Assembly (NCBI GenBank): GCA_026392115.1 | Contig: JAPLCQ010000069.1 | Span: forward strand, 1 to 64,000 | DNA length: 64,000 bases | Source: Armatimonadota bacterium | GTDB taxonomy: Bacteria > Armatimonadota > Chthonomonadetes > Chthonomonadales > CAJBBX01 | Direction of reading: 5' to 3' | Part shown: in pieces, positions 21,648 to 53,389 of the stretch | Layout of the letters: every line of letters starts with the position of its first letter | Position numbering within the stretch: the stretch's first letter is position 1 | Made by a program: the position numbers and the translations under genes | The notes under the pieces: model-generated | Told to the model about the DNA's origin: nothing | The model's database searches: none | The model's input: only the letters and a program-made list of their open reading frames with translations

Positions 21648-21657
21648 GTGGGTGGGT

Positions 21658-22104
21658 TCAGGGGCGGGTGGGGGCAACCGAGGCGTGGGGGGCAGGATCG
21701 CCACAGGCGTCGCTCCACTCGGCCCTATAGTCGGAGAGAAGCGACTTGATCGGCTTTTCGGAGATGAACCGCATGAACCAATACATGCTGCACCTCGCCC
21801 TCTTGAGCGCTTGCTCTGTGGCCTGGCCCACGTATTCCGCCCCGGTGAGATTGGTGGGCAGCCAGAAGCAGGTCTTGGTCATCATCAGCGCGGAGGGCTT
21901 GGCCAGGGCCAGTTCTGGGCAGACTCGATAGCCGGTCTGCCAGCAATCATTCACGTGCGGGTTCGTCTCCCAGTCGGTGAGCGAGACGGTCAGAAAGCGA
22001 CCATCCAGCGGGCTCGGGTCGCTGAGAACGATCCAGTAGTGCGCCGGCCTATGGTTGTGTTCGTCCACCTTGTAGACGCTGCCCGCGCAAATCAGCGGCG
22101 CCAA
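21658..22104 (-). CDS. Hypothetical protein, possible toxin partner of the Panacea-like gene
   Basis: Directly downstream of the Panacea-like [37 protein letters not shown] is PemK/MazF-like in character only. Confidence 0.5.
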
Positions 22105-22105
22105 C

Positions 22106-22657
22106 TCACCCGGCCACCGACTCGTAGTAGCCGATCTCGGCGGCCTTGGCCTGCGCCACTGCAGGCGGGAGCCCCAACCCGCGCTGGAGCACGTCGATGA
22201 GCTCGATCCTCGCGCTCGTTTGCTTGGCCTTGCAGGACCTGTCCCACTCCGGGAATGTGTGCGTGATGTCTACCAACTCCCACTTGGAGTAGCCCTTGTA
22301 CCTGTCCCACGTCTGGTCGATCACGCCTATCTCGTACTCTGATAGGACATCTTCGACGGCCACATGAGCAATGAGGCGGAAGGTGTTGGACCTCTTGCCA
22401 GCCTTCGGAAGGTACTCGATGCAGCGGCTCCGCGCTCCGATCCCGCGGCCCTTGAGCTGGTTGAGGGACTCGGAGAGCACTGGGCCCATGGGCAGGCTGT
22501 AGAAGGCGTCTCCGGTGATGGATGTGGTCGTTTCGGCGATGGCTGTCCGCTCGGCGATGACCATGAGCTTGGTGAGCCGGAGGTCATTGAGCTCCTTGCC
22601 GGGTGCGAGGGCAAGGAAGCGAGCTGCCATTGCCTCGGATTTGGCTGGGCGGAACAT
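22106..22657 (-). CDS. Panacea/SocA-like (DUF4065) antitoxin-type protein
   Basis: LNDLRLTKLMVIAERTAI...TSITGDAFYSLPMGPVLSESLNQL typical of DUF4065. Confidence 0.72.
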   Translation of the reverse strand: MFRPAKSEAMAARFLALAPGKELNDLRLTKLMVIAERTAIAETTTSITGDAFYSLPMGPVLSESLNQLKGRGIGARSRCIEYLPKAGKRSNTFRLIAHVAVEDVLSEYEIGVIDQTWDRYKGYSKWELVDITHTFPEWDRSCKAKQTSARIELIDVLQRGLGLPPAVAQAKAAEIGYYESVAG

Positions 22658-22702
22658 GGTCGTCTCCGTAGGTGCGGCGTCGGGCGCCTGGATGATTATT
22701 CA

Positions 22703-22719
22703 GCCACCGAATCGGTGGC
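22703..22719. promoter_or_regulatory. 17-bp palindrome GCCACCGA-A-TCGGTGGC upstream of the Panacea-like gene (possible operator)
   Basis: Perfect 8-bp arms read directly, 46 bp upstream of the 22657 start. Confidence 0.5.
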
Positions 22720-22856
22720 GTCGCTGGGGTCCCAAGGAGAGTCTACCGTGCGCTGGGGCGGGATTGTTGCAGGGTTTATGGCGGTTTTTCGCCGGTCCCG
22801 GGGCCTCCCCTGCCTCCGTCAGTGGCGGATGTATTCGTTGACGAATGGGTTGGGCG

Positions 22857-23702
22857 TCAGGGGCTGAGGGCTTCGGGCGGCATGTGGCTGGTCAGGGCCT
22901 CCGCCAGATCGGCGATGGAGCGCTCTTCGTAGACCCGGGTGTTGGATGGCGCTCGGTGCCGTAGGTGCCTTACGGCCTTCTCGTAGTGACCCTCCATCTC
23001 AGGAAGCTGTGGGCGGCCGATGAGGATCGACGCAGAGCCAAGCTCCTCGTGGTCGGCTACCGTCCCGATCTTGCCCAAGCACTGGAACACATGCACGTTC
23101 ACCGTGCCTGCGTCCAGGTAGTCGAGGGACAGCGGCTCGACCACGTGCCAGCTTCGGTTCTTGTAGGCGTACTCAAAGCCGGCTGCCATGCCCTCGGAGG
23201 AGTAGAGGGTGCACTCCTCGATGAGCGAGGCGGCCTTCACGGGCAGCGCCTGCCTGAGCTTATCGAAGAGGTCCTTGTTCGTGATGCGGTCCCGGCCTCG
23301 GCGTTCCGGGGCGTAGCGCTCCACGTGGGCGCGGTACAGGTGGTCGATCTCGTTGGGCCTTCCTGGCGACACTCCGAACATGATCCGGCTGTAGTGGATG
23401 CTGAGGCCGTTATCGGCCACCACGTTGGCCATGACGGATTCGAGCGAGGAGTTGTCCAGGGTGTCGAGGATCGTTTCGGACGGCGGAGCGAAGCGCTCGA
23501 AGGCTCGCTGCAGGCCGTCGAGCCATGCGCGGTAGCCGTCGGTCTGGACGCCGGCAAAGGCGCTGGTGAGGCGTGCGTAGTTGTGGTCGGCCTTGAACTC
23601 GATGGCGCCGTTGGCCCACCGAAGGACGACGCCGATGTTGAGCTGCTCCTCGGTCCCGCGATCCGGAGAGTAGCGCAAGACGCAGAAGGTGTACTCGTCC
23701 AT
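22857..23702 (-). CDS. DUF3037-like protein
   Basis: MDEYTFCVLRYSPDRGTEEQLNIGVVLRW...; 2 nt from HipA-like gene, a known neighbourhood. Confidence 0.7.
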   Translation of the reverse strand: MDEYTFCVLRYSPDRGTEEQLNIGVVLRWANGAIEFKADHNYARLTSAFAGVQTDGYRAWLDGLQRAFERFAPPSETILDTLDNSSLESVMANVVADNGLSIHYSRIMFGVSPGRPNEIDHLYRAHVERYAPERRGRDRITNKDLFDKLRQALPVKAASLIEECTLYSSEGMAAGFEYAYKNRSWHVVEPLSLDYLDAGTVNVHVFQCLGKIGTVADHEELGSASILIGRPQLPEMEGHYEKAVRHLRHRAPSNTRVYEERSIADLAEALTSHMPPEALSP

Positions 23703-23704
23703 GG

Positions 23705-24499
23705 CTACATGACCCCTCTTATGATGGCCTGCACGAATGCGGCCCACTTATTCTGTACGATGTTCAGGTGGTTCTCGGCATCCTCGTAGAGCGCCTTGCA
23801 GCCCATCTCTGCGGCGACGCCACGGTTCACATGGATGGTTCGCAGCGGCTCGATATGCATCTCCATCTCGCGGACGTGCAGGGCCGCGGCCGCTCGCAGG
23901 GCGTGGGTATGCGCGATCTGGCCGGCCACATCGAGCCACGGATGCCGGGTCAGTGTCGGGTCTCTAAGGCCGACGAAGGCCCACTCCATGTCGAACGCGA
24001 GCAGGTCGCGCCCACGGAAGGCGCAGTTGACGTTGGTGGTCGGGCGGTCGGTGTTGAGCACCATGGCGTCGAACGCCAGCAGTATGCAGGCATCGTGCGC
24101 CGAGACCTGCCTGGCGTGTTCTGCCGGCTGGAACGTGCGCAGGCCCGGGATGTAGGCGAAGCCGAGGTGCGCGGCTGGATCGACGGGCCTCTTCAGCGAG
24201 CGCGTGACGTACTCGGCCAGCCGGGCCGGCACATGGACAATGGCTGGATCAGGCACGAGCAGGCCGGAGGAGCGGGCCAGCAACGTTCCGAGCAGCTCGG
24301 CGTGCACATCGACCAGACGCCGGCGGCCCCAGACCGGCTTGACGACCATCTCGGCGTCGGGCCCATCCGATCCGCGCCGGGCGCACCGCATGATGACAGG
24401 GCGTGATGAGCCCTGGTCGATGACGCATGGGGCGTCCACGGCATCCCAGTGGTCGATCGACTTGACGTTGTGCACTATCGGCTCCTTGGACCAGCACAC
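23705..24499 (-). CDS. HipA-like kinase family protein
   Basis: AFDAMVLNTDRPTTNVNCAFRGRDLLAFDMEWAF kinase catalytic/metal motifs. Confidence 0.72.
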   Translation of the reverse strand: MCWSKEPIVHNVKSIDHWDAVDAPCVIDQGSSRPVIMRCARRGSDGPDAEMVVKPVWGRRRLVDVHAELLGTLLARSSGLLVPDPAIVHVPARLAEYVTRSLKRPVDPAAHLGFAYIPGLRTFQPAEHARQVSAHDACILLAFDAMVLNTDRPTTNVNCAFRGRDLLAFDMEWAFVGLRDPTLTRHPWLDVAGQIAHTHALRAAAALHVREMEMHIEPLRTIHVNRGVAAEMGCKALYEDAENHLNIVQNKWAAFVQAIIRGVM

Positions 24500-31933: not shown

Positions 31934-32586
31934 CCTGCAGGTGTGGGGCTCCGATGTTCCCACGGTACGACCGGACCGGGCGGCGGGTTGTGGGACATGT
32001 GTGCCAGGGATGCGGGGCCGAGGCCAGCGCCGGGGGCGCGCCGATCGTGGTGGCGCCGAAGCTGCCGGGGTTGGACCGGGGGCGGCAGCGGCGGGCGGCT
32101 CCGGTCTACGCGACGGAGGGCGAGCTGCAGGCGGCGATCACCCGGCGGCTGCGGGCGGACGGGCACACGGTGCTCTCTACTAGCCGGCACCGGCGCGGTG
32201 TGACCTGCCGGAAGTGCGGCGCCTGGAGCATGCCTCAGGGCGGCGACGGGGTTGACCGCGGCGTGCCGGACCTGCTGGTGCACGTGGACGGCGCCCGGTG
32301 GATCGGCATGGAGGTGAAGGGGCACCGGACCGCGGTGAGCCCGGAGCAGCAGGCGCTGCGCGACGCGGGCCGGATCGTGATCGTTCGGAGCGTGGAGGAG
32401 GCGCTGGAGGCGGCTGAGGGGCTGAAGGGGAGAACGGGCGAAGGGGAGAAGGGGGGAACGGGTGACCACACCGTCAACGGTGTCAACACCGCCAGCACGG
32501 TCCGGCCGTTGTCACCTCCTCACCTGAATCGCCCCCTCACCTCCTCCTCCCGCGAGGCGGGATCGGGCGTTCGGGGAGTGCGGTGA
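31930..32586 (+). CDS. VRR-NUC domain nuclease
   Basis: TEGELQAAITRRLRADGHTVLS...GVPDLLVHVDGARWIGMEVKGHRTAVSPEQQALRDAGRIVIVR. Confidence 0.85.
   Translation: MTCRCGAPMFPRYDRTGRRVVGHVCQGCGAEASAGGAPIVVAPKLPGLDRGRQRRAAPVYATEGELQAAITRRLRADGHTVLSTSRHRRGVTCRKCGAWSMPQGGDGVDRGVPDLLVHVDGARWIGMEVKGHRTAVSPEQQALRDAGRIVIVRSVEEALEAAEGLKGRTGEGEKGGTGDHTVNGVNTASTVRPLSPPHLNRPLTSSSREAGSGVRGVR
32461..32553 (+). repeat. SD/anti-SD element copy A (inside VRR-NUC 3' end)
   Basis: GGTGACCACACCGTCAACGGTGTCAACACCGCCAGCACGGTCCGGCCGTTGTCACCTCCTCACCTGAATC... Confidence 0.85.
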
Positions 32587-33551: not shown

Positions 33552-34025
33552 TTGGCGCTGACCCAGAACACGGGCGGGCACGGACGGGCAGAGCCACCAA
33601 GGACCGGTGTTCGAACAGATGCGAACACGTTCGAACGGGAGGTGGGGGTGGCTAGAGCGCTGGACAGGGCGGTTCAGGACCAGGTGATCGCGGACCTCTG
33701 CGCGCAGATGGGCATTCGCGAGGTCGCGCGGAAGTACCGCCTGTCGCCGTCCACCGTGAGCGCCATTCGGGCGGAGATCAAGGACCGGGTGCAGGCCGCC
33801 GCGCCGGAAGTGAAGCGCCAGTTAGACGAGCTGCTGCTCGATGCCCTGGCGGCGAGCCTCGAGGCGCAGCGACGCATCGCCGAGGTGGTGAGTGAGCCAG
33901 AGTACGTGCGCAAGCAGACCGCCGCCGCGAATTCCGACATGTTTGGCGCCCTTGCGTCTCACTCGGTTCGACTTCTCGAAGCGGCGAGTTGGGCAGAGGC
34001 CGACGGCGAAGCGCCGGACGGCTGA
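33552..34025 (+). CDS. Putative terminase small subunit
   Basis: HTH MGIREVARKYRLSPSTVSAIRAEI; immediately before TerL. Confidence 0.6.
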   Translation: MALTQNTGGHGRAEPPRTGVRTDANTFEREVGVARALDRAVQDQVIADLCAQMGIREVARKYRLSPSTVSAIRAEIKDRVQAAAPEVKRQLDELLLDALAASLEAQRRIAEVVSEPEYVRKQTAAANSDMFGALASHSVRLLEAASWAEADGEAPDG

Positions 34026-35376
34026 GGACCTTGACAACCGAATAGGGCTGGCCGAGTTCGTTGAGCGGACGACGGTGCTGGAGCTGGACCCATGGCAGAG
34101 GCACCTGTGCGCGAGGCTTGAGCGGATCGGGGAGGAGCGTGGGGCGCGGATCCTGATCCATGCGCCGCCGCAGCACGGTAAGAGCATCATCGTGTCGCAG
34201 CGGTTCCCCGCCTGGCTGCTCTCCAGAAGGCCGCAGGAGCGCGTGAAACTGGCTTGCTACAACATCACCCACGCGACGCGGTTCGGGCGCATCGTACGGG
34301 ACCTGATGGCCGGGGATGAGTATGCACGGGCGTTCCCCGACCCGGCTCTCCGGCTACCGACGGTGACCAGCGCGGAGGAGTGGAGCACGGCGGCCCGGCA
34401 CAAGCTGGCCGACGCGCAGCCCTCGTTCAAGGCGCTGGGGCTGGTGACCGGGTTTGTGGGGCAGGGCGCGGACACGCTGATCATCGATGACCCGTACGCT
34501 AGCCCGCAGGACGCGCTGAGCGAGGCGATCCGGGCTTCGACGTGGATGTTCTGGAACGAGAGCGCCCGGGTTCGTATCCGGGACGACGCGAACGTGGTGG
34601 TGATGTTCCACCGCTACCACGAAGAGGACCTGGCGGGCCAGCTAATGGCCGAGGGCGGATGGGAGGAGCTGCGCTACGCGGCCCAGGCGGACGGCGATCC
34701 GGAGAGCCCGGACCCGATCGGCCGGCCGGAGGGGCAGTACCTGAGCCCGAGGTTCAGCGAGGGTTACTACGACGCGCAGCGGGAGCAGACGCTTGTCTGG
34801 TTCGGGCAGTTCCAGGGGCGGCCCAGCGCGAAGACGGGCGACCTGTTCGACGTGACGAAGATCGAGGTGGTTGCGGCGGCGCCGGCGGGGCTGACCCGGG
34901 TTCGGGCCTGGGACAAGGCGGCCACGAAGGGCGGCGGCGACTGGACGGCCGGCGTGCTGATGGGCTTCGACGGCAAGGGCACCTACACCGTGCTCGACGT
35001 TGTCCGGGAGCAGTGGGGGCCGGGCGAGCGGGACGCGGGCATACGGCTGGTGGCGGGCATGGACGGCCCCGAGGTGCGCATCGTGGGACCGCAGGACCCG
35101 GGGCAGGCCGGCGTGATGGACGCGGCCCAGTTCGTGGCCATGCTGGCCGGCTACATGGCGGAGACGCACCCGGTGACGGGCGACAAGCGAGTGCGGGCCG
35201 GGCCGTTCGCGGCTCAGGTGAACGCGAGGAACGTGAAGATGCTGAAGGGCGACTGGAACGGAGCCTACCTGAAGGAGCTGAAGGGCTTCCCGAGGGGCCG
35301 CAACGACGACCAGGTGGACGCCTCGGCCGACGCGTTCAACGCGCTGGTGACGCAGGCGAACTGGGAGTGGTCGTGA
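33892..35376 (+). CDS. Terminase large subunit (start uncertain, may be nearer 34025)
   Basis: Walker A-like HAPPQHGKS, DTLIIDDPYA, RAWDKAATKGGGDWTAGVLMG nuclease motif. Confidence 0.92.
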   Translation: MSQSTCASRPPPRIPTCLAPLRLTRFDFSKRRVGQRPTAKRRTAEDLDNRIGLAEFVERTTVLELDPWQRHLCARLERIGEERGARILIHAPPQHGKSIIVSQRFPAWLLSRRPQERVKLACYNITHATRFGRIVRDLMAGDEYARAFPDPALRLPTVTSAEEWSTAARHKLADAQPSFKALGLVTGFVGQGADTLIIDDPYASPQDALSEAIRASTWMFWNESARVRIRDDANVVVMFHRYHEEDLAGQLMAEGGWEELRYAAQADGDPESPDPIGRPEGQYLSPRFSEGYYDAQREQTLVWFGQFQGRPSAKTGDLFDVTKIEVVAAAPAGLTRVRAWDKAATKGGGDWTAGVLMGFDGKGTYTVLDVVREQWGPGERDAGIRLVAGMDGPEVRIVGPQDPGQAGVMDAAQFVAMLAGYMAETHPVTGDKRVRAGPFAAQVNARNVKMLKGDWNGAYLKELKGFPRGRNDDQVDASADAFNALVTQANWEWS

Positions 35377-35395: not shown

Positions 35396-35518
35396 ATGAC
35401 GCCGCTGGGACTGTTCTTGTACGGGCTGGCGTTGGCCGGCGGCGTGGTGGCCGTGGGGGTTGCCGGGCTGGTTGTGGTCGGGCTGTTTGGGCTGATGATG
35501 GCTCCTCGGGAGCGATGA
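35396..35518 (+). CDS. Small membrane protein
   Basis: MTPLGLFLYGLALAGGVVAVGVAGLVVVGLFGLMMAPRER. Confidence 0.5.
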   Translation: MTPLGLFLYGLALAGGVVAVGVAGLVVVGLFGLMMAPRER

Positions 35519-35519
35519 G

Positions 35520-37364
35520 ATGGCACTGAGCGTTCGACGGCAGATACAGGCTGGGCTCAAGGCGGCTGGTTTCCGGCTGCCCGGGTCCGGCTACGGCTAT
35601 GGGCCGGACCTCTACGGATGGTTCGGGCGAACGCTGCCGGGCACTCAGTTCGACTTCCGATCGGAGGCGGGCGCGCTCTGGGAGAACGGGGCCTTCGCGG
35701 CGTGCCTGCGCTGGCTGCAGGACACCTGGACCGAGGCGCCCATGTGCGTGCGGACGCGGGACGCCAACAACCGCTGGGTGACGGACCCGACGCACGCGGC
35801 GGAGGCCTGGTTCAACGAGCCGAGCCCCTACTACGACGCGTCGGTGCTCTGGTACGGCACGCTGCTCTCGCTGAAGAGCGACGGGAACGCCTACTGGTAC
35901 AAGGTGCGCTCTCGGGCCAAGCAGATGGTGGGCGTGATCTACCTGCCGCACTTCCTGGTGACGCCGCGCTGGACGGCGGGCGGCTCCACGTTCATCGAGA
36001 CCTACGAGTACCGGCCGGACGGCACGCCGATCCAACTGGACCCGGCCGACGTGGTGCACCTGCGGATCGGGATGGACCCGTTCCAGATGCGGCGCGGCCT
36101 GAAGCTCATGGACGCGGTGCTGCGCGAGGTCTGCACGGAGAACGAGATCGCCACGTTCCATGCGGCGGTGCTGCGCAATGGAGGCTTCCCGGGGGCCGTG
36201 GTGTCGCCGGAGGGGTCGCACAACGGGCAGCCTGCGATGCTGACGAAGCCGCAGCGAGACGAGTTCCGGGAGCAGTGGAAAGAGCGGTTCAGCAAGGACG
36301 GCGCCGGAGAGGTGTTCGTGCAGAGCATCCCTGTGAAGGTTCAGGTGCCGGGTTGGAAGCCCAGCGAGATGATGATGGACAAGATACGCGGGCTGAACAG
36401 CAGCTACATCTGCGCGGCGTTCGGCCTGGACCCGATGGTAGTGGGGCTTCCGAGCGAGACGAAGACGTTTGCGAACTACGAGGAGGCCCGGCAAGGGGCG
36501 TACGACAACCTGGTCCTCCCGCTGCATCGTGTGATCGGCCGCCAGTTGGACCGGCAAGTCCTGCCCGAGCTGGTGGGCAGCAACCCGGTGAACCAACGGA
36601 TCGGCTGGGACTACCAGGATGTCCGCGAGCTGCGGGAGGACCGGGCGAAGATCTACCCGGTGCTGAGCCAGGCTGTGGGCGGCCGCCCGTGGCTGACGGT
36701 GAACGAGGTCCGGTCGATCGTGGACTTCAAGCCGATGGACGGGGCGGACGAGCTGGAGGCTCCGGAGCCGCCGATTTCCGCGGGGGCGAGGGGGAGAAGG
36801 GGAGAAGGGGAGAAGGGGCCCGACGCCGGGGCGGCCGAGGCGAAGTGGGACGGGCAGCCGAGGCAGGCCGGTGGGAAGTTCGGGCCGGGCAAGATGCCCA
36901 AGCCGGGAGATGTCGAGCCGACTGGTGACGGCAACTTCGGGCCGATCTACGCTCAGTTCAAGGGGCGGCCGGAAGATGCGATCGCGCAGCTCCTGATTAC
37001 CGAAAAGGGCGAGGTCCCTGGCGCGTTCCATCGCGATGACCTGGGAGACATCGATCTGATCTGGGGAAGTGAAGGCGCTAGCAAGGGTAAGGGCTATGGG
37101 CTGGCCAAGGTTGCGAAGTGGCATCCTGAGATGCTGACGATCCTGCCGGATGTCATCGCGCAAGGAACCGTCAAAGCGGGCCCCACTACGGATCTATCGC
37201 GCACTATCGTGGATGGCGAGCATTTGGCGCTGGTGAAACTCACGTGGTACGAGAAGCAGAAGACGTGGCTAATGACCGCCTACGGTGCAGAGGGTGACAC
37301 AGGACTCGGTGAATCGACGCGGAAGATTATTGCCGCTCTTAGGAATAGCAAAGATGGCAGTTGA
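35520..37364 (+). CDS. Phage portal protein with C-terminal barnase/EndoU/colicin-type nuclease-like (PBECR-like) domain
   Basis: Portal: LPGTQFDFRSEAGALWENGAFAACLRWLQDTWTEAP...ICAAFGLDPMVVGL; C-term FGPIYAQFKGRPEDAIAQLL...GDIDLIWG...GYGLAKVAKWHPEML. Confidence 0.82.
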   Translation: MALSVRRQIQAGLKAAGFRLPGSGYGYGPDLYGWFGRTLPGTQFDFRSEAGALWENGAFAACLRWLQDTWTEAPMCVRTRDANNRWVTDPTHAAEAWFNEPSPYYDASVLWYGTLLSLKSDGNAYWYKVRSRAKQMVGVIYLPHFLVTPRWTAGGSTFIETYEYRPDGTPIQLDPADVVHLRIGMDPFQMRRGLKLMDAVLREVCTENEIATFHAAVLRNGGFPGAVVSPEGSHNGQPAMLTKPQRDEFREQWKERFSKDGAGEVFVQSIPVKVQVPGWKPSEMMMDKIRGLNSSYICAAFGLDPMVVGLPSETKTFANYEEARQGAYDNLVLPLHRVIGRQLDRQVLPELVGSNPVNQRIGWDYQDVRELREDRAKIYPVLSQAVGGRPWLTVNEVRSIVDFKPMDGADELEAPEPPISAGARGRRGEGEKGPDAGAAEAKWDGQPRQAGGKFGPGKMPKPGDVEPTGDGNFGPIYAQFKGRPEDAIAQLLITEKGEVPGAFHRDDLGDIDLIWGSEGASKGKGYGLAKVAKWHPEMLTILPDVIAQGTVKAGPTTDLSRTIVDGEHLALVKLTWYEKQKTWLMTAYGAEGDTGLGESTRKIIAALRNSKDGS

Positions 37365-37480
37365 CATCTGTCCGGGGATTAGTCCGGGCCCAGAGCTACG
37401 CACCCGCCGCCTGCCTTGGTCGTCGGCGGGTGGGAGCTGCCATCGGCCCGATTATACAGCACTTCGGACGGTGGCGCAAG

Positions 37481-38179
37481 ATGTATGACGCGGTCACGGA
37501 GCGGGATCGGGCCGAGGAGGCGCGGCGGGCAGCCCTGTTGGCGCTGCTGGCCCTGCTGATCGACAGCACGCGGCATGAGCTGGACCTGATCTGCGGGTCG
37601 CTCACGCTGGGCGCTGTGGGCGTGCCTGCCTGGAGCGAGCGCTTCATGATCCGCCTGGTGGAGGGGCACACGCACGCGGCCTACCTTGGGCGGCGTATGG
37701 CGGGGCGCGAGGAGCCGCTGGACAGCCTGGACGAGGCGTTCGGTCAGTCCGTCGCCGAGGAGCAGGCGCCATTCCTGGAGAAGTTCGCCGGCGCCATCGA
37801 GGCGGGCGAGTATGACCTGCCGGCGGAGCCCTCGGCCGACGAGCCGACGCTGGGCGAGATCGTGGCGGAGCGGGTGGCGCAGCTTGACGCGGAGCGGATA
37901 CGCGCCCGGGCCGGCATGTACGCCGACCGGCTGCGCGGCACGTTCCACGAGGCGTGGGTGCTGAGCCTGCCGGCGGAGACGGTGATCCACTGGAAGCTGG
38001 AGGAGGGCGCCTCGGAGCGCCACTGCTCGACCTGCCCGAAGCTCGCGCGAAATGGGCCCTACACGCCGGAGACGCTGCCGACGTTCCCCGGAGCCGGGGA
38101 TACGGACTGCCTGACGAACTGCCTGTGCCGGCTTGAGGTTGTGGACGGGGATCGCCCAAAGGGAGCACGAGATGCTTAA
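37481..38179 (+). CDS. MuF-like minor head/head morphogenesis protein
   Basis: HWKLEEGASERHCSTCPKLARNGPYTPETLPTFPGAGDTDCLTNCLCRLEV. Confidence 0.7.
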   Translation: MYDAVTERDRAEEARRAALLALLALLIDSTRHELDLICGSLTLGAVGVPAWSERFMIRLVEGHTHAAYLGRRMAGREEPLDSLDEAFGQSVAEEQAPFLEKFAGAIEAGEYDLPAEPSADEPTLGEIVAERVAQLDAERIRARAGMYADRLRGTFHEAWVLSLPAETVIHWKLEEGASERHCSTCPKLARNGPYTPETLPTFPGAGDTDCLTNCLCRLEVVDGDRPKGARDA

Positions 38180-39167
38180 CGACATTCTGGTGATGCGCGG
38201 GGCGGCGGCGAAGAGCCTTGGGTCCGGGCGGATCGGCGGTTGGGGCGTGCTCTTCAGCACGGCCGAGGACCCGGACCTGGCGCGGGACTACTTCGACGAG
38301 CAGACCGACTTCGGGCCGCACAAGACCAGCCTGGTCTGGTACGACCACCGCCTCGATGATGACGTTCGGCAGGTGCTGGACCCCTCCGCCACGCTGGAGG
38401 TGAAGGCCGAGGGCGTCTGGGTCGAGGCCCAGCTTGCCATGCGGACCGAGTACGAGCGGGACATCATGGCGCTGGCCGAGGCGGGCAAGCTGGGCTGGAG
38501 CTCGGGCACCGCGTCGCACCTGGTGGAGCGCGAGGCCGACGGCAAGAGCCGGCACATCAAGCGGTGGCCGCTGGGTCTGGACATGAGCCTGACGCCGACG
38601 CCCTGCGAGCCTCGGACGATGGCCGTGCCTCTGAAGAGCCTGGCGGCGTCGCGCAAGGCGACGGGGTTGAGCGACAGCGACAAGCGGTCCGCGCTGGAGC
38701 CGCTGGTGAAGGCCGCCTGCCACTGCACGCCGGACGAGGACAAGGAATGCTGGGGCCCATGGATCACCGACCTATTCGATGAGCAGGTGATCTGGACCTG
38801 TTGCGGGCGCTACTACGAGGCGGACTACTCGATGACGGACGGCAAGCCGCTGCTCGGCGAGGCGCGAGAGGTGCGGCGCCGTGTCGTCTTCGATCCGGTT
38901 GGAGACGGGCTCCGGTCGCTTGCTGGCCTGAGCATGCAGGACCACACCGAGGCGGCGCTTGCTGTGGTTTCGGAGTGGGCGCAGCGTGTCAAGTCGATCG
39001 ACGCGCTGCGGGCTGAGAGTGGGCGCGCGCTGCCGCCGAGCCGGTTGGAGGCGCTGAAGCGGGTGCAGGAGCTGCTCGCAGGGGTGGCCGGACGGCAACC
39101 GGGGACGCACGCGGCGGCCCTCATGGCGAAGGTATTGGCGACCGAGGCGGAACTGATGATGGGGTGA
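38172..39167 (+). CDS. Prohead protease (HK97 family)
   Basis: GRIGGWGVLFSTAEDPDLARDYFDEQTDF...LVWYDHRLD; precedes capsid gene. Confidence 0.75.
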   Translation: MLNDILVMRGAAAKSLGSGRIGGWGVLFSTAEDPDLARDYFDEQTDFGPHKTSLVWYDHRLDDDVRQVLDPSATLEVKAEGVWVEAQLAMRTEYERDIMALAEAGKLGWSSGTASHLVEREADGKSRHIKRWPLGLDMSLTPTPCEPRTMAVPLKSLAASRKATGLSDSDKRSALEPLVKAACHCTPDEDKECWGPWITDLFDEQVIWTCCGRYYEADYSMTDGKPLLGEAREVRRRVVFDPVGDGLRSLAGLSMQDHTEAALAVVSEWAQRVKSIDALRAESGRALPPSRLEALKRVQELLAGVAGRQPGTHAAALMAKVLATEAELMMG

Positions 39168-39254
39168 GGAGGTGAGGAGGTGACCACACCGTCAACGGCG
39201 GCAACGCCGTCAGCATGGTCCTTGTCACCTCCTCACCTGAATCACCTCCTCACG
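39163..39254 (+). repeat. SD/anti-SD element copy B
   Basis: GGTGAGGAGGTGAGGAGGTGACC...TTGTCACCTCCTCACCTGAATCACCTCCTCAC. Confidence 0.92.
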
Positions 39255-39270: not shown

Positions 39271-40668
39271 ATGAACGAGAAGCTGAGGCAACTCCGCGAG
39301 CAGGCCGCGGCCAAGCTGGCGGAGGCGAAGGCGCTGATTGGGACCGGGCGGCCGGAGGACCTGGATAAGGCCTCGAAGCTGAACGGGGAGATCGGCGAGA
39401 TCAAGGCGCAGATGGACGCCGAGGGCAACCGGAGCGCGGTGGCCGAGGCGATCAAGGCGAACTCGCAGTGGTTCGACCAGCCCGTCAACGACCTGGTACT
39501 GCCGGGAGACGGCGGCGGGGCGGCGCCTGCAGCGGCCGGAACCACTCCCGCGCAGCTCGTGGGATGGCAGGCGGCGGGCAAGACCTGGCTGAGCCGGGCC
39601 CGGGGCGTGCTGGAGGACGAGGGCGCGGGCGCCATCTCCACCAAGCAGTGGAACCGGATCTCGCAGGACGACTACCTGAAGACCTTCTTCCGTTGGCTGA
39701 AGGTCGCGAGCAAGGGCGGCTCGGTGTCGAGCGCCGAAATGAAGGTGCTGCAGGAGGGCCTCGACGACCAGGGCGGCTTCCTGGCGCCGGCCGACGTCAT
39801 CATGCGGATGCTGACGAAGCAGCCCGCTCCGACGCAGCTCCTGAGCCATGTGAACGTCGTGGAGACCAACCGGGACCGCATCCGGCTGCCCAAGGGCGTC
39901 TACTCGACCGACAACAAGTACACCAGCCCGGTGCGTGTGCAGTGGGTGGGCGAGGTTCCGGCCTCCAGCACGGCGGCCCTGGCCACTCAGCCGGTGTTCG
40001 GCGAGTTCGAGTGCCCTGTCCACACCGCGATGATGTACATCCCGGTGACCAACGACATGCTCGAAGACTCGGGCGTGGCGATGATGGACTACCTTGGGCG
40101 CTGCTTCAGCGAGGCGCAGGACCTTGGGCTGGAGGACGTGGCCATCAACGGCACGGGCTTCAAGCAGCCCAGCGGCATTCTGCAGTCTCCCGCCACGGCC
40201 GAGGGCAGCGGCGAGCCGGTCTCCGTCAACAGCACGAACGCGACGCTCCTCAAGCCTGCGGGCCTGAAGGCGCTGCAGTTCGCGCTGCCCCCGCAGTACC
40301 AGGCGCGTGCGCGCTGGCTGATGAACTGGACGAACTGCGCGCAGGAGATCGACTCGTGGGTCGACGGCCACGGCCGCTACCTGTGGGGCCAGATGGACAA
40401 CGGGATCGACCGGAGCAACTACGAGCGGCCGCTGCTGAGCCGCCCGGTGGTGTTCAGCGAGTTCATGCCGAACATCGCCGCGAACGCCTACCCGATCGTC
40501 TACGGCGACCTGTCGGCCTACACGCAGGTTCGGCGCATCGGCATCTCCATCCAGATCCTGAGCGAGCTGAACGCGCTGCTGAACCAGAAGGTGCTGCTCG
40601 CGCGGCTCCGAGTGGGGGGCGACGTGGCCGAGGACTGGGCGATGAAGATCCAGAAGGTGGCCGCGTAG
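39271..40668 (+). CDS. HK97-type major capsid protein
   Basis: N-terminal coiled-coil; DDQGGFLAPADVIMRML; FECPVHTAMMYIPVTNDMLEDS; NIAANAYPIVYGDLSAYTQVRRIGISIQIL. Confidence 0.92.
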   Translation: MNEKLRQLREQAAAKLAEAKALIGTGRPEDLDKASKLNGEIGEIKAQMDAEGNRSAVAEAIKANSQWFDQPVNDLVLPGDGGGAAPAAAGTTPAQLVGWQAAGKTWLSRARGVLEDEGAGAISTKQWNRISQDDYLKTFFRWLKVASKGGSVSSAEMKVLQEGLDDQGGFLAPADVIMRMLTKQPAPTQLLSHVNVVETNRDRIRLPKGVYSTDNKYTSPVRVQWVGEVPASSTAALATQPVFGEFECPVHTAMMYIPVTNDMLEDSGVAMMDYLGRCFSEAQDLGLEDVAINGTGFKQPSGILQSPATAEGSGEPVSVNSTNATLLKPAGLKALQFALPPQYQARARWLMNWTNCAQEIDSWVDGHGRYLWGQMDNGIDRSNYERPLLSRPVVFSEFMPNIAANAYPIVYGDLSAYTQVRRIGISIQILSELNALLNQKVLLARLRVGGDVAEDWAMKIQKVAA

Positions 40669-40670
40669 GC

Positions 40671-40790
40671 GGCTGAGGAGGTGAGGAGGTGAGTAGGTGA
40701 CCACACCGTCAACGGCGGCAACACCGTCAGCGCGGTCCGGCCGTTGTCACCTCCTCACCTGAATCACCTCCTCACCCCCCCTCACGACCG
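40671..40790 (+). repeat. SD/anti-SD element copy C
   Basis: GAGGAGGTGAGGAGGTGAGTAGGTGACCACACCGTC...TCACCTCCTCACCTGAATCACCTCCTCAC. Confidence 0.92.
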
Positions 40791-41881: not shown

Positions 41882-42020
41882 CCGGCTGACGCGGCTGAGG
41901 CGGCTGAGGAGGTGAGGAGGTGAGGAGGTGACCACACCGTCAACGGCGGCAACGCCGTCAGCACGGTCCGGCCGTTGTCACCTCCTCACCTGAATCACCT
42001 CCTCACCCACCTCACGACCG
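41881..42020 (+). repeat. SD/anti-SD element copy D
   Basis: Three tandem GAGGAGGTGA-type units then core then TCACCTCCTCACCTGAATCACCTCCTCAC. Confidence 0.92.
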
Positions 42021-42999: not shown

Positions 43000-43110
43000 C
43001 GCCGGCTGAGCGCGCTGAGGAGGTGAGTGGGTGAGGAGGTGATCACACCGTCAACGGCGGCGCCGGTCTCACCTCCTCACCTGAATCACCTCCTCACCCC
43101 CTCACGACCG
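43000..43110 (+). repeat. SD/anti-SD element copy E
   Basis: GTGAGGAGGTGATCACACCGTCAACGGCGGCGCCGGTCTCACCTCCTCACCTGAATCACCTCCTCAC. Confidence 0.92.
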
Positions 43111-44314: not shown

Positions 44315-44450
44315 GGCGGCTGAGCGCGCTGAGGAGGTGAGGGGGTGAGGAGGTGACCACACCGTCAACGACGGCGCCGGTCTCACCTCCTCACCTGAAT
44401 CACCTCCTCACCTGAATCACCTCCTCACCTCCTCGCGACCGAAGGGAGCA
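44311..44450 (+). repeat. SD/anti-SD element copy F (extra anti-SD unit)
   Basis: Right arm has three TCACCTCCTCACCT units. Confidence 0.92.
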
Positions 44451-45507: not shown

Positions 45508-45659
45508 GGCGGTGGACCTCCCCAGGGCGCGAGGCGCGCGCCTGCTAGTGTACTCGCGCAAGGACGGCGAAACCGGAAAGGCGCGCGCGGCAGAAGGAAG
45601 CGAGGGCGGTGGGGGCGAAGGTTACACCGCAACACCAGCGAAGGGGAGCGGCGTACCGA

Positions 45660-46769
45660 ATGAGCAGGATCGTCTTTGTGTTGGGTGCGGGTGCGTCGGC
45701 CGAAGCTGGCGCGCCGATGATGAAGGACTTCCTGGACAAGGCGGACTGGTGCAGGACGAACCGTAAGGTGAGGGACCCGGCCGACTTTGATCTCGTGTTT
45801 GACGCCATCCACAGGATGGATGCAACCATGGCGAAGGGCCACGTCGACCGCGACAACCTGGAGAGCCTGTATGGTCTCTTCGAGATGGCGGAGCTGACGG
45901 GGCGGGTACCAGGGTTGGACCCAGCGAAAGCCCGAGACCTCACGCAAGCCCTGCGTACGGTTATAGCTCAGACGCTGGAGGAGTCGATCAAGCACCCAGT
46001 GCGCCGGGCGGTGGCAGAAGCGCCCGAACCATTCGGGCGTTTTGTCGATCTGGCATGCGGCGAAGAGCGTGCTTGGCGGCAGTCTGTGTCCTTCATGACC
46101 TTCAACTACGACCTCTGCCTGGACTACGCCTTGCTGATGCGGGGTGTGCGGTGCTGGAGTTCGCCAACAGAGGGTGCTACGCCGCAAGGGTGGGTGGACC
46201 TAATGAAGCTGCACGGTTCGTTGAACTGGCGGCGTGAGGAGGCCGGCACGGTCACTGAGGTCCCGATCAGGGCCGTGAAGCGGCCATTCGATGTTGATGG
46301 GTCGGACGTCTACGTGCCATGGTCCGAACTCCTCGGCGAAAGCCCGTCGGGCCATGACCCGTTCATTGTGCCGCCGACGTGGAACAAAGGCGAGTACCAC
46401 AAGGCCATCGCGCCCGTGTGGCGGCGGGCGGCGGCGCATCTGGCCGAGGCCGAGTACGTGGGCTTCATTGGCTTCTCGCTGCCAGAGGCCGACGCATTCG
46501 TGCCGGCGCTGTTCGCGCTGGGCACTGAAGGACCGGCCAAACTGAAGAGGGTCGCAGTCTTTGACCCAGCCGAGTCGGTCGATGAACGGTATCGGCAGAT
46601 GCTGGGTCTCAGTATGCGTGCGCGGTTGGTCGGCCACAGGATGAGCTTCTCCGAGGCCTTGCGGGTGCGCCGGTCCCGGGGTGGCGACGTTGCGGCGGGC
46701 GGGATTGCCGATGACCTTGCAGACATTTTGGGCGAGGTGCCACAGAGGCGGCGCGTGACAGGGGGCTAG
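45660..46769 (+). CDS. SIR2-like (NAD-binding) protein, candidate NADase
   Basis: IVFVLGAGASAEAGAPMMKDFL, MTFNYDLCLDYAL, LMKLHGSLNW, VPPTWNK, YVGFIGFSLPEADAF. Confidence 0.8.
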   Translation: MSRIVFVLGAGASAEAGAPMMKDFLDKADWCRTNRKVRDPADFDLVFDAIHRMDATMAKGHVDRDNLESLYGLFEMAELTGRVPGLDPAKARDLTQALRTVIAQTLEESIKHPVRRAVAEAPEPFGRFVDLACGEERAWRQSVSFMTFNYDLCLDYALLMRGVRCWSSPTEGATPQGWVDLMKLHGSLNWRREEAGTVTEVPIRAVKRPFDVDGSDVYVPWSELLGESPSGHDPFIVPPTWNKGEYHKAIAPVWRRAAAHLAEAEYVGFIGFSLPEADAFVPALFALGTEGPAKLKRVAVFDPAESVDERYRQMLGLSMRARLVGHRMSFSEALRVRRSRGGDVAAGGIADDLADILGEVPQRRRVTGG

Positions 46770-46930
46770 CATACGGCACCAGCGGCATTAGCGTGGGCAT
46801 ACCGGGCAACGGAGGTGCGGCGCCTGGAGGGTGCGCGTTGGCAGTATTGGAGACGGTATGGGGCAGCAGAGCACAACGTGCCCCGGCACCGGGTCGGGCG
46901 TAACTCTCGCTTACGAGGAAGGAGCCGGGC

Positions 46931-47569
46931 ATGAAGGGAACCGGGCCTGCGTGGCCGCCAACGCGCGAAGCCTTCGACTGCAAGTTCATGCGGGACGCGA
47001 ACTGCGTTAATGCCAGGGGGAAGGATGCCAACTTGAGCCGGCTGGAGCAGTGGGCGCGAGACGGCGTCATCACGCTGCAATGGTGCGCGACCTCGGCGGA
47101 CGAGGCATGTGCAGGCGCTGGGGAGGCCGCTGAGAGCCGAAGGATGAAGGTGATGGACACCAGGAAACCCTTGGACGGCGGCCGCACTCTGCAAACCGTG
47201 GCCACGCAGCTGCAGTGGATAACCGATGAACCATCGCAAGGTGAAAATGTAATATTATCAAAAGTACAGAATGTACTCGTCCACAACCGTGCACTGACTA
47301 TACAAGATAAGACTGATATCGATATCATATTTGAGGCGTGGAAATATAAACTCATCTTGATCACTAACGACGGTGACTCGAACAGGCAGCCGCGCGGCAT
47401 CCTGGGCAGTGCGGCTGATCTGCGAAGGGAACTCGGCGTGCGCGTAATGAGACCGGCTGACGCAGTGGGCCATACCCGATCGGCGATCAACAATCGCGAC
47501 GAGTACGCACGCTCGTGGGCGGACGAGACGGGGAACGCCCTGCCCGAGTGGGTCGGCCGCGACGCGTGA
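46931..47569 (+). CDS. PIN-like domain protein (putative nuclease)
   Basis: CKFMRDANCVNARGKDANLSRLEQWARDGVITLQW...DIDIIFEAWKYKLILITNDGD. Confidence 0.5.
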   Translation: MKGTGPAWPPTREAFDCKFMRDANCVNARGKDANLSRLEQWARDGVITLQWCATSADEACAGAGEAAESRRMKVMDTRKPLDGGRTLQTVATQLQWITDEPSQGENVILSKVQNVLVHNRALTIQDKTDIDIIFEAWKYKLILITNDGDSNRQPRGILGSAADLRRELGVRVMRPADAVGHTRSAINNRDEYARSWADETGNALPEWVGRDA

Positions 47570-47693
47570 CCATGTGGGCCGCAAGAAGCGATCAGTAGCC
47601 GATCTGGTTGCGGACGGCGGTGGGGTGCGCTGGCAGAAAGCGTAAGAGCACCATCAGGTACAGTACAATGGTACTAACGGGCCAGGAGGGACC

Positions 47694-48710
47694 ATGAAGC
47701 CTACCGCTGTACCCGATGGCGCCTCGGGCATGCGCGCCTTGTACCGAAGGCTCGGCGCACTTGGGCTGGGCCAGACGTACGTCCGCAGCGTGGCGCTGCC
47801 GACCGGTTGGGATGACAGTGAAGCTGCCAATCCCTCTACGTATGCCTGCGTGCTGACCTTGCTGGCGCGGAACCTGGGGCTGGATATACGCTCGTTGCAG
47901 GACGCGCAGGCGCCCCTGCGGTGGCGCGAGGCCGGTGAGACCCGCTTCCTGAAGCACGGCAACGTGGACGAGTGCGAGTTTGACGCGGTAAAGGGCATCG
48001 CCCTGCGCGCCGCTGGAGCCGCAGCTCAGGGCGTCACGGCTCCGACCCGCACCATTCCCTCGGCGCAAGCGCTTCGCACGCAGATTCTCTCCGCCGGCCA
48101 CCAGGCTGTGACCCTGGAGGCGCTCCTCGACGCTTGCTGGGACCTTGGCATCGTAGTGCTCTGCCTGAGGGACCTGCCCCCAAAGGCGAAGAAGCCCACC
48201 GCAACGGTGACTGTCGCAGGGGGCCGGCCGGTGGTGGTCCTGTGCCGAAAGCCTTGTGCAGCAGCATGGATGCTGTTCTGGCTGGCGCACGAGATCGGTC
48301 ACGTCGCAAATGGCCACCTTGGCGGCGCTTCCTTGCTGATTGATGCTGACCTCGATGGGCAGCCGAGCGGTGACATGGAGCAGGAGGCCCACAAGTATGC
48401 GGTGACGTTGCTCGCGGGCGAACCTGATCCGGGTTATCTAGCGCCGAGCAGGCTGTATCGGGGACGGCTGGCCGCTTGGGCGCGCGATGTCGGCCGACGC
48501 GACGGCGTGGACCCGGGGTTCGTGGTGCTGCACAGCACAAGGGCTAGCGGCGGGAGATACGATGTCGCAAACAATGCCCTTAAGGCGCTGGAGGACAGCC
48601 CTGATCCTGTGGCGACTGTGACGGCCCAACTGGACCGCCGGCTGGACTGGTCCCTGCTGACGCGCGACGCCCGGGAGTTCCTACGCCGCATGGCAGTACG
48701 CGCCTCGTAG
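47694..48710 (+). CDS. ImmA/IrrE-family metallopeptidase
   Basis: WLAHEIGHVANGHLG (HExxH) with trailing EQEAHKYAVTLL. Confidence 0.82.
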   Translation: MKPTAVPDGASGMRALYRRLGALGLGQTYVRSVALPTGWDDSEAANPSTYACVLTLLARNLGLDIRSLQDAQAPLRWREAGETRFLKHGNVDECEFDAVKGIALRAAGAAAQGVTAPTRTIPSAQALRTQILSAGHQAVTLEALLDACWDLGIVVLCLRDLPPKAKKPTATVTVAGGRPVVVLCRKPCAAAWMLFWLAHEIGHVANGHLGGASLLIDADLDGQPSGDMEQEAHKYAVTLLAGEPDPGYLAPSRLYRGRLAAWARDVGRRDGVDPGFVVLHSTRASGGRYDVANNALKALEDSPDPVATVTAQLDRRLDWSLLTRDAREFLRRMAVRAS

Positions 48711-48712
48711 CC

Positions 48713-49336
48713 GTGCGGCACTACGTCGACACAAGCGTCGTCATCGTGCTGCATGTCGGCGATCTCTGGAGGGCGACGCTGCAAGCGCTGGGTACGTCCA
48801 TCAGCCATCTGTGGCTGCTGCAGGGCGAGGTCTGCAGCCTCTGCGCCCATGACTCTGAGCTTGAGAGCGCCTACGACCGCGCGACCTTGGCCGGCGCCGC
48901 TCGCTTTGCGCACACGGCGCAGCCGGTGTGTGACGCGCCCGACCCAGAGGAGCATGCCTACCTCACCAACGCGGACCGCATCGACGGCGGCGAGGCCGCG
49001 CTGTTCGCCGCCACGAAGAGCGCCCCCGGCGACTTCCGGTTGCTGACGGCCGACGTGAACTCCCTCCAGGCTCTGACCACTGCGGCTGGCTGCGTCGGCG
49101 TGGAGAAGCGCCTTGAGGGGCGCGTCCTTGTGCTCGAGCAGATTGTGGAACGGCTGCTGGCGCGTGTCGGTATGGAGCCGGTCGCGGCCGGGCTGCGCGA
49201 AGCCGGTCGCGGGTGCGGCGCGGCGCGGCTCATCGTTACCAAGGCTGGCGACCCCATGACAGAGGCCGGTTTGAAGGCGGCGCTCAGTAGGCGGATCGAG
49301 GAGATCAGAAGGCAGACGGGTCGGCTTCTTGCCTGA
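48713..49336 (+). CDS. PIN-like domain protein
   Basis: HYVDTSVVIVLHV...DGGEAALFAATK...FRLLTADVNSLQAL; GTG start 2 bp after ImmA-like stop. Confidence 0.65.
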   Translation: MRHYVDTSVVIVLHVGDLWRATLQALGTSISHLWLLQGEVCSLCAHDSELESAYDRATLAGAARFAHTAQPVCDAPDPEEHAYLTNADRIDGGEAALFAATKSAPGDFRLLTADVNSLQALTTAAGCVGVEKRLEGRVLVLEQIVERLLARVGMEPVAAGLREAGRGCGAARLIVTKAGDPMTEAGLKAALSRRIEEIRRQTGRLLA

Positions 49337-49413
49337 CCGCAGTCCATGCCCGGCCCCCATCAGACGCCGTTGGGTAGACTGACAGCAGCATCGACACTCG
49401 AGGTGGCCCCAGC

Positions 49414-50784
49414 ATGCTGAAGAGCGACCTACCATTCGGCAGCGAGTTCTCACCAGCCCAGATTGATCTCCCTGTCCTGCTGGAGGCCGCTGCGGCCCAC
49501 GGCGGCGACTGGCATGCCTTCGAGGCTGTCGTCTGGGAGAGGTACTTCGCCAGCCACACCAGCACCTCGGAGTACAACCAACGGAAGCTCGCCAACAACA
49601 CGAAGCTCGGCATGCAGGCCTACGGCATCATCGACGACGATGCGCGGCTCACAACCGTTGGTGAGTCCTTGTACGCCCTGCGCGAAGACGCCGCGGCGTT
49701 ACACGCCGCGCTGGGCCGGCATGTCCTTCTGATGATGAAGGGCATGGTCGTGCTGCAGTGCGTTCAGGATATGCAGGCAGCCGGCGAGGTAGTGGACCTC
49801 AATCGGCTAAGGAAGGCGCTTGGCGAGCGGGGTGTACACGTTCCGCGAGGCGGCAAGCACATGAGTACCCTTCGGCTATGGCTGGAGCGAGCCGGTGTGT
49901 TGTACGCCCGTTGGCGGGTGAACGAGGAGCGAGTGCGCGAACTCTTGGGTCTTGGCAGCGATGAGATCGACGTGTTGGCCGGGATGACGCCCCCACAGCG
50001 TGCCTTCCTGAAGGCCCTGGCGAACATTGGCGAGGAGGTTGTGGTCCAGGCCAACAGGGTTGAGCGGCTCGCGGCGGCGACGTATGGCGTGCAGTTCAAC
50101 GAGAAGGCCTTGGCGAAGGACGTCCTGTACCCGCTGCGGGACGCCGGGTATCTGGTGCTGGAGCGTGGGACCAAGGAACCGGGTCGGGGAGCGAAGTCGC
50201 CAGTCGTCCGGCGATCAGAGAAGTTCGTCGTTGACGTGGCGTTACCCCTGCTTGAGCAGTTCGAGGGGGCACTCCTCAGCGAACTCCGTCCAGTGCTGCG
50301 CCGACCGCTCGGGGCGATCATGGATGACCTGAGTGCTGCCGACAAGCACACGCGGGGCCTGGCCCTAGAGGCGCTGGCAATTCGGCTGATGCGGCTGGTA
50401 GACCTCACGTACGTGGCCACGCGCCTGCGCGGAACCGCCACGGCGGGCGCGGAAGTTGACATCGTTTTCGAGACGGACCGGCTGCTGTACTCGCGGTGGC
50501 AGGTGCAGTGCAAGAACACCTCGGCGGTGGCCCTGGACGATGTGGCCAAGGAGGTCGGGCTGACGCACATGCTGAAGAGCAACGCCATCGTGATCGTCAG
50601 TACAGGCAAGATCGGACCCGAGGCGCGCCGTTACGCGAACTCGGTAATGGGCACTACCAACCTGTGTATCGTAATGCTGGATGGCCACGACTTGGACGGC
50701 ATCCGGGCCGACCCCACCGCCATTATGGATGTGCTGAACCGCGAGGCGAGCTCCGCGATGGCCCTTAAGAGACTGGAGAAGTAG
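49414..50784 (+). CDS. Restriction endonuclease-like protein with Mrr-like catalytic domain
   Basis: TAGAEVDIVFETDRLLYSRWQVQCKNT...ALDDVAKEVGLTHMLKSNAIVIVSTG. Confidence 0.75.
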   Translation: MLKSDLPFGSEFSPAQIDLPVLLEAAAAHGGDWHAFEAVVWERYFASHTSTSEYNQRKLANNTKLGMQAYGIIDDDARLTTVGESLYALREDAAALHAALGRHVLLMMKGMVVLQCVQDMQAAGEVVDLNRLRKALGERGVHVPRGGKHMSTLRLWLERAGVLYARWRVNEERVRELLGLGSDEIDVLAGMTPPQRAFLKALANIGEEVVVQANRVERLAAATYGVQFNEKALAKDVLYPLRDAGYLVLERGTKEPGRGAKSPVVRRSEKFVVDVALPLLEQFEGALLSELRPVLRRPLGAIMDDLSAADKHTRGLALEALAIRLMRLVDLTYVATRLRGTATAGAEVDIVFETDRLLYSRWQVQCKNTSAVALDDVAKEVGLTHMLKSNAIVIVSTGKIGPEARRYANSVMGTTNLCIVMLDGHDLDGIRADPTAIMDVLNREASSAMALKRLEK

Positions 50785-50787
50785 CCG

Positions 50788-51843
50788 ATGGCCGCGAACC
50801 TTGCGGTGGCGCAGCGGGCCGCAGTTGCAATTGAGACCGCGCTCGGTCGGGTGTACTGGGCGGACTCTCTGGATGTCATGCGCGAGGCCTGTGCCAGCGG
50901 GTCGGTCGATCTGATCATGACCAGTCCGCCATTTGGTCTCGTAAGGAAGAAGGACTACGGTAATGCTGATGCCTGGGATTATTTAGACTGGTTTAGACCA
51001 TTCGCTGAACACTTTCGCCGCATCCTGAAGGACAACGGCAGTCTCGTCATTGACATTGGTGGGGCGTGGGAGCCAGGGCAGCCGACGCGCAGCCTATACC
51101 ATTTCAAGCTCTTGATAATGCTGTGCGAGGAGTATGGCTTTCACTTAGCCCAGGAGTTTTACTGGTGGAACCCGTCGAAGTTGCCGACCCCGGCCGAGTG
51201 GGTGAACATCCGGCGGATTCGGGTGAAAGACGCGGTGAACTGTGTCTGGTGGCTCTCGCGGAGTCCGTGGCCAAAGGCATCCAACAGGCGCGTACTGCAG
51301 CCATACAGCGACAGTATGCAGGTGCTGCTCCGCGATGGATATAAGGCGATGAAGCGACCGTCCGGTCATGACATTAGCACGAAGTTCGCGCTGAACAATG
51401 GTGCGGCCATACCGCCCAACATCATCGCTGCCGCGAACACGGAAAGCAACACCGCGTACTTGCGCTACTGCAAGCACCATGGGATTGCGGCGCATCCAGC
51501 GCGGTTCCCTGCGGAACTGCCGGGGTTTTTCATCCAGATGCTGACCGACCCTGGCGACCTGGTTCTCGATCCGTTTGCCGGTAGCTGCGTGACGGGCGAG
51601 GTGGCGGAGCGCGGCGCCCGGCGGTGGGTGTGTGTAGAGATGATGGAAGAGTATGTAGAAGGGGCGAGAGCCCGGTTCTGCCGCCCTTCCAGCGATGGCC
51701 AGCCCGGGCAACCAGCAGCGCCGGCACAGTACAGGCTGTCGAAACCCGGGCTACAGGCGCTGGCCGAGGGCGGAGAACCGCTCTCTCCCGACGGTGGCCG
51801 GGTGCGCCCCGCTTCGGCTAAGCGTCGAGCCGAGCAGGGCTGA
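50788..51843 (+). CDS. DNA methyltransferase (SPPF-type, N4-cytosine-like)
   Basis: DLIMTSPPFGL; LVLDPFAGSCVTGEVAE. Confidence 0.88.
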   Translation: MAANLAVAQRAAVAIETALGRVYWADSLDVMREACASGSVDLIMTSPPFGLVRKKDYGNADAWDYLDWFRPFAEHFRRILKDNGSLVIDIGGAWEPGQPTRSLYHFKLLIMLCEEYGFHLAQEFYWWNPSKLPTPAEWVNIRRIRVKDAVNCVWWLSRSPWPKASNRRVLQPYSDSMQVLLRDGYKAMKRPSGHDISTKFALNNGAAIPPNIIAAANTESNTAYLRYCKHHGIAAHPARFPAELPGFFIQMLTDPGDLVLDPFAGSCVTGEVAERGARRWVCVEMMEEYVEGARARFCRPSSDGQPGQPAAPAQYRLSKPGLQALAEGGEPLSPDGGRVRPASAKRRAEQG

Positions 51844-53265: not shown

Positions 53266-53389
53266 CGCGCGCGGCGCGCGCTGAGGAGGTGAGGGGGCGA
53301 GGAGGTGACCGCACCGTCAACGGCGGCGCCGGTCTCACATCCTCACCTGAAGCACCTGAATCACCTCCTCACGACCGAAGGGAGTAGAG
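53264..53389 (+). repeat. SD/anti-SD element copy G
   Basis: GAGGAGGTGAGGGGGCGAGGAGGTGACCGCACCGTC...TCACATCCTCACCTGAAGCACCTGAATCACCTCCTCAC. Confidence 0.9.

Follow-up and report, generated by a model that had tools for sequence, protein, structure and literature searches.

Fusions of PBECR-type RNase domains to phage head proteins have been described before. Iyer et al. (2017, PMC5512222) reported fusions to MuF and portal domains as the simplest PBECR architectures and predicted that they are packaged and injected, and related papers describe portal fusions with 2H, InPase, Nudix and ART domains. The portal fusion analysed here is therefore a further case of a known type, carrying its PBECR domain on a portal as those fusions do, although the text of Iyer et al. 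names no PBECR1 domain on a PF04860 portal. We show that this fusion has a conserved predicted active site, arose by recent modular acquisition and recurs on other portal families; relative to the earlier work, the junction, the recent acquisition and the other portal families are newly documented.

Three further systems invite comparison. MuF polymorphic toxins (Jamet 2017; Bxa, Apk2) also place a C-terminal toxin-like domain on a head protein in the same gene neighbourhood, but here the carrier is the portal itself and no immunity gene adjoins it. Among annotated phages the domain is most similar to part of Bbp10 of Bordetella phage BPP-1 (44% identity), a polyvalent protein of 2052 aa that differs in not matching the portal profile used. 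T4-type capsid-targeted internal proteins and prohead protease substrates share the proposed head targeting and proteolytic release before ejection; the likeness is one of proposed logic, cleavage of the present fusion being hypothetical.

The fused portal-PBECR1 gene and its neighbourhood

The stretch of DNA analysed (the window) comprises positions 1–64,000 of a 78.8-kb contig (G000:C178) in a 5.7-Mb bacterial genome. The original prediction was of a portal domain, a low-complexity linker and a C-terminal nuclease-like domain in one ORF. Indeed, the strand, the length of 614 aa, the linker peptide GARGRRGEGEKGPDAGAAEAKWDG, the (GGGGAGAA)n array and the C-terminal sequence were all found as quoted, and one continuous frame over the full length rules out a frame error or the joining of two genes. 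An hmmscan search placed both the Phage_portal profile (PF04860) and PBECR1 (PF18809, E 7e-10) above their curated Pfam cut-offs and far beyond chance, the latter confirming the proposed nuclease class (Table 1). The portal assignment rests on the profile match together with the position after the large terminase; identity to portals of other genomes, viral contigs and phages is 24–38%, and the nearest portals of other genomes share 28–39%.

The fused gene is the sole match to the PBECR1 profile in the whole genome, and PBECR3, considered as an alternative family, had no match anywhere in it. The Pfam scan detected no Phage_Mu_F domain in the fused protein and a single effector domain, so the protein does not qualify as polyvalent, a term for polypeptides with at least two. 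The PBECR1 module is longer than its Pfam match, since the FGPIYxxF segment common to the N-termini of PBECR1 proteins begins near residue 470 and the change in codon composition described below falls after residue 462. A search of plasmids for relatives returned no match and a sequence search of the PDB found nothing. Scanning viral contigs with the domain as a single protein yielded no relatives; those used below were found only after searching with an alignment.

Table 1 Features of the fused gene and its surroundings (positions in the window).
Feature	Position	Strand	Evidence or remark
Terminase large subunit	33892..35376	+	Terminase_6C/6N; PHROG 38 E 3.4e-72
40-aa hydrophobic ORF directly before portal	35396..35518	+	Sequence; coding-like composition
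Fused portal-nuclease gene	35520..37364	+	Single ORF, 614 aa; two Pfam domains over cut-off
Portal domain, residues 59-401 (PF04860)	35694..36722	+	E 2.8e-44; PHROG portal families also match
8-nt (GGGGAGAA)n array encoding GRRGEGEKG linker	36783..36818	+	Recurs elsewhere in host genome
WDGQPRQAGGKFGPG, possible degenerate copy of W[DE]ExKHPRxx[DN]G[KQ]F	36846..36890	+	Gap-tolerant pattern only
PBECR1 nuclease module, residues 471-614	36930..37361	+	39.8 bits vs cut-off 27.6; pLDDT 86.9; GC3 0.68
PBECR1 Pfam core, residues 502-590 (PF18809)	37023-37289	+	
Predicted active-site region K530, H535, E537	37107..37130	+	Column conservation, 142 domains
T586, predicted C-terminal catalytic Thr/Ser	37275..37277	+	T 138/142, S 3/142
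Minor head protein, MuF position	37361..38179	+	35% identity, E 5e-29, to Synechococcus phage Sc-Yong805-2 gene between portal and prohead protease
Gene in head-protease position (candidate protease)	38133..39167	+	Synteny only
Major capsid protein	39271..40668	+	PF05065 E 6e-39
GAGGTGAG-type repeats	32461-32544, 39157-39253, 40660-40780, 41898-42011, 43014-43101, 44328-44432, 53280-53327		

The gene directly downstream had no Pfam match, and a MuF identity found no support, the MuF profile being negative. For the head protease of the element no profile match was obtained, and BLASTP of the candidate gene against annotated proteases gave weak results. Bacterial glycosidase genes flank both sides on the contig, so the element is most likely a prophage; the contig had no integrase match.

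Additional features were noted in the surrounding DNA. Partly palindromic repeats of about 120 nt, built of GAGGTGAG-type 8-mers, lie between the prophage genes, mostly just before a start codon, and shorter pieces of them are present elsewhere in the genome. Between the head genes and later genes, positions 45609-51843 may hold defence cargo (a SIR2-like protein, an Mrr-type endonuclease and a DNA methylase) of lower GC3. On the minus strand, positions 20019-24499 encode a DNA methylase with an Mrr-like domain and SocA/Panacea antitoxin-like, DUF3037 and HipA_2 kinase-like proteins.

Origin and predicted active site of the nuclease module

The portal and linker end in G or C at 415 of 456 third codon positions (GC3 0.91), against 98 of 144 (about 0.68) in the nuclease (Fisher p 2e-10). 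A single change point in GC3 fits best after residue 462, between linker and domain, where the value falls from 0.91 to 0.67; none of 500 permutations reached it. Most of the nearest portals, from other genomes and viral contigs, end at about 430–525 aa without a nuclease or run into a MuF domain. The compositional break, together with the lack of the domain in the closest portals, marks the nuclease as an added module, probably acquired recently from a source of lower GC. Synechococcus phage Sc-Yong805-2 has the order portal (449 aa), homologue of the gene that follows the fusion, protease and capsid, so the module looks inserted into a conserved order.

To the domain of the window we added 141 PBECR1 domains from viral contigs and genomes, giving a conservation set of 142. 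Among its most constant positions are G509-D-I-D-L, W515, G516, G527, H535, W583 and T586, all of which are kept in the window. The K530 column contains K or H in 141 domains, H535 is H in 136, E537 is E in 110, and the T586 column is T or S in 141. The PBECR active site, according to Iyer et al. (PMC5512222), combines a His in the N-terminal helix with a C-terminal Thr/Ser, to which H535 and T586 correspond. The set K530, H535, E537 and T586 also resembles the residue pattern listed for colicin D ([KH]K, Hxx[ED], [ST]; PMC3482391).

AlphaFold, run with 68 sequences, returned a model of the domain with pTM 0.78 and the pLDDT given in Table 1, in which the GDIDL strand is followed by a helix ending at H535, and T586 lies in the last strand. 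The model was well scored by pLDDT. In Foldseek searches of the PDB, headed mostly by RelE, HigB, RelBE, ParE and a CDI toxin, none of the matches reached E 1e-3, the best (RelE- and CDI-type toxins) having E values of 0.1–0.5 and low TM-scores. The ranking nevertheless suggests the fold class expected for BECR, as support rather than proof. The domain is predicted to be a metal-independent endoRNase of the BECR fold.

Other portal fusions and a junction motif

PBECR1 was found at 80 viral and 78 genomic loci, and in 3 of 291 genomes of the phylum. Contrary to the expectation that the class usually sits on MuF-type proteins, surveyed PBECR1 domains lie almost always in polyvalent proteins of 900–3500 aa, with some in short stand-alone ORFs. 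Beside the window, three portal-PBECR1 fusions were identified, on two other portal families. One belongs to an uncultured Mucispirillum (L145, portal PF06381) and carries N at the position of the catalytic T, so at least this copy may be inactive. The second lies in what remains of a prophage, in another genome of the window's phylum (L202, portal PF06074, 31.8 bits), and the third, on a viral contig, keeps the T (L214, portal PF06381, PBECR1 at 46.2 bits). The count is a minimum; since the Pfam scan covered part of the ORFs at the roughly 160 loci, a few more fusions could be among them. A shared origin of the portal-borne domains of the window, L202 and L145, with L214 excluded, was neither rejected nor supported (AU p 0.48, long branches).

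Other portal extensions were seen alongside these. The 648-aa portal of a relative (L017:1396-3339) has a metallopeptidase-like C-terminal extension with HELTH, possibly another portal cargo, where Peptidase_M78 matched below cut-off. A 1000-aa portal-MuF fusion (L191:1347-4346) shows an intein-splicing-like match after MuF, also below cut-off.

In L202 the PBECR1 domain is preceded by NWREEDHPRADDGKFGDG. Used as a 23-aa query, this segment drew eleven matches, all weak (E 2 or worse); a phage portal headed them, and further portals were present. Following the L202 linker led to the motif W[DE]ExKHPRxx[DN]G[KQ]F. Searched as the strict DNA pattern W[DE][DE]xxHP[RS]xx[DN]G[KQ]F, it occurs in at least 120 stretches of viral contigs, where by our own estimate well below one is expected by chance. 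Among the matches listed, it lies either close to the N-terminus, in stand-alone proteins, or in an internal linker. The 71 motif-bearing ORFs among them gave 13 portal matches, from four Pfam families, and their effector side includes LPD3 (10), ART exotoxin (3), PBECR1 (2), Zeta toxin (2), InPase and NUDIX. Portals with a strong copy of the motif are present in cultured phages too, such as the Xanthomonas phages PhiXhv-5/7 (L209, L211). Next to 32 stand-alone tagged ORFs among the matches listed lie portal (12 matches), MuF (5) and DUF2213 (5) genes, and portals share an LPD3-like tail with stand-alone tagged proteins beside head genes. None of the papers searched contained any of six literal versions of the motif, which is weak evidence of novelty.

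Across L213-L292, among the matches listed, the motif is widespread in proteins of phage head clusters, as an N-terminal tag and as a linker between domains. One 1351-aa ORF (L224:955-5016) contains five copies, each ahead of a separate segment.

The linker of the window may hold a worn copy, degenerate at best. The stretch from W443 to G457 (WDG-QPRQAGGKFGPG) fits a loosened, gap-tolerant pattern; this pattern was written after the window sequence had been seen, has a shuffle rate of 5e-6 and matched nowhere else among 1.66 M background residues. A motif HMM did not score the window linker above shuffles. A tentative reading, to which we give somewhat less than an even chance, is that phages have a plug-in delivery system made up of portals, MuF proteins, head proteases and stand-alone proteins of head clusters. 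The shared motif would then be a head-targeting or protease-release tag for swappable effectors (PBECR1, LPD3, ADP-ribosyltransferase, Zeta toxin, InPase and NUDIX), and the window fusion a recent product with a worn tag.

Possible roles of the portal-borne nuclease

In dsDNA phages the portal ring consists of twelve subunits, whose C-terminal parts (crown or barrel) point into the capsid. From this topology the nuclease is expected inside the capsid. We propose, with confidence evenly divided, that the portal carries it as an RNase, that a cut in the linker releases it, and that it leaves with the DNA to act in the new host. Portal subunits would assemble normally, with the PBECR1 RNase projecting into the procapsid on its flexible linker. 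A protease, most likely that of head maturation, would cut the linker and leave the nuclease free among the packaged DNA; the nuclease would then be ejected into the next cell and, soon after infection begins, cleave host or defence RNA. Because a C-terminal portal domain held covalently inside the capsid could not leave with the DNA, delivery needs linker cleavage. The suggestion in the original prediction that twelve nuclease copies on the ring are injected or act at host takeover would require the same cut for injection. Such a step has precedent in Salmonella phage SPN3US, whose prohead protease cuts both portal and ejected proteins, and in DarA and DdrB of phage P1, which are processed before packaging. 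Iyer et al. (PMC5512222) argued that phage polyvalent proteins are packaged and injected, and relatives of the window's domain sit in such proteins. The kept H535 and T586, the toxins heading the non-significant Foldseek list, the signs of an added module, the recurrence on other portal families and the shared junction motif also speak for this reading. Against it stand the head protease lacking a profile match, the contig without an integrase match, the N of L145 and the window linker that the motif HMM did not recognise.

The covalent nature of the fusion also fits a nuclease that remains on the portal and acts in the procapsid or in packaging, for example by removing or binding RNA, with no ejection. 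The loose match of the window linker to the junction motif, the missing catalytic T of L145 and the case of Mu gpF, whose inactive PBECR was suggested by Iyer et al. (PMC5512222) to bind RNA, point the same way. We consider this unlikely, however, as both H535 and T586 are intact in the window, related portals work without the domain, and the same junction class carries ART, Zeta-toxin and LPD3 domains with no obvious packaging role. Retention of the near-invariant PBECR1 positions in an open frame, and recurrence of the architecture on three portal families, likewise make it quite improbable that the insertion is neutral and carried without function, even though its composition indicates recent acquisition, its branch in the tree is long and the exact fusion has no close homologue with which selection could be tested.

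A polymorphic-toxin style weapon, in which the RNase kills non-lysogens while an immunity protein shields lysogens, has been proposed for MuF toxins, for which immunity genes have been documented (Jamet 2017, PMC5576092; Bxa, PMC11699363). A small ORF follows 89% of MuF toxin genes. A cognate immunity gene, for which the original prediction advised a search, did not turn up next to the fused gene: directly 3′ of the fusion in the window, L145 and L214 there is no small ORF, the next gene being a head gene or one in head-gene position. This difference favours an effector of early infection over a toxin that kills, and we regard the weapon as rather improbable here. Least credible, to the point of near dismissal, is a phase-variation switch that acts on the nuclease through the 8-nt linker array. 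The unit of this array is not divisible by three and another frame stops at 36928, but no variant was seen and the array recurs at other host loci, once inside an apparent coding linker, for which reason the switch was set aside; the array is not good evidence for phase variation and is plausibly the source of the flexible linker. The recurrence in question, at G000:C39:1589-1616 (locus L200), is in frame, forms the apparent linker of another host protein and encodes the same peptide, GRRGEGEKG.

If the proposed early-infection effector is indeed released and ejected, the portal would be a cargo carrier with a dozen copies, beyond its role as a DNA gate, and entry of the RNase would be timed to entry of the genome. 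If the junction motif is a tag, virion-delivered effectors could be listed from sequence, including those without a known domain, and the loading and freeing of effectors by phages could be tested with one protease and one peptide.
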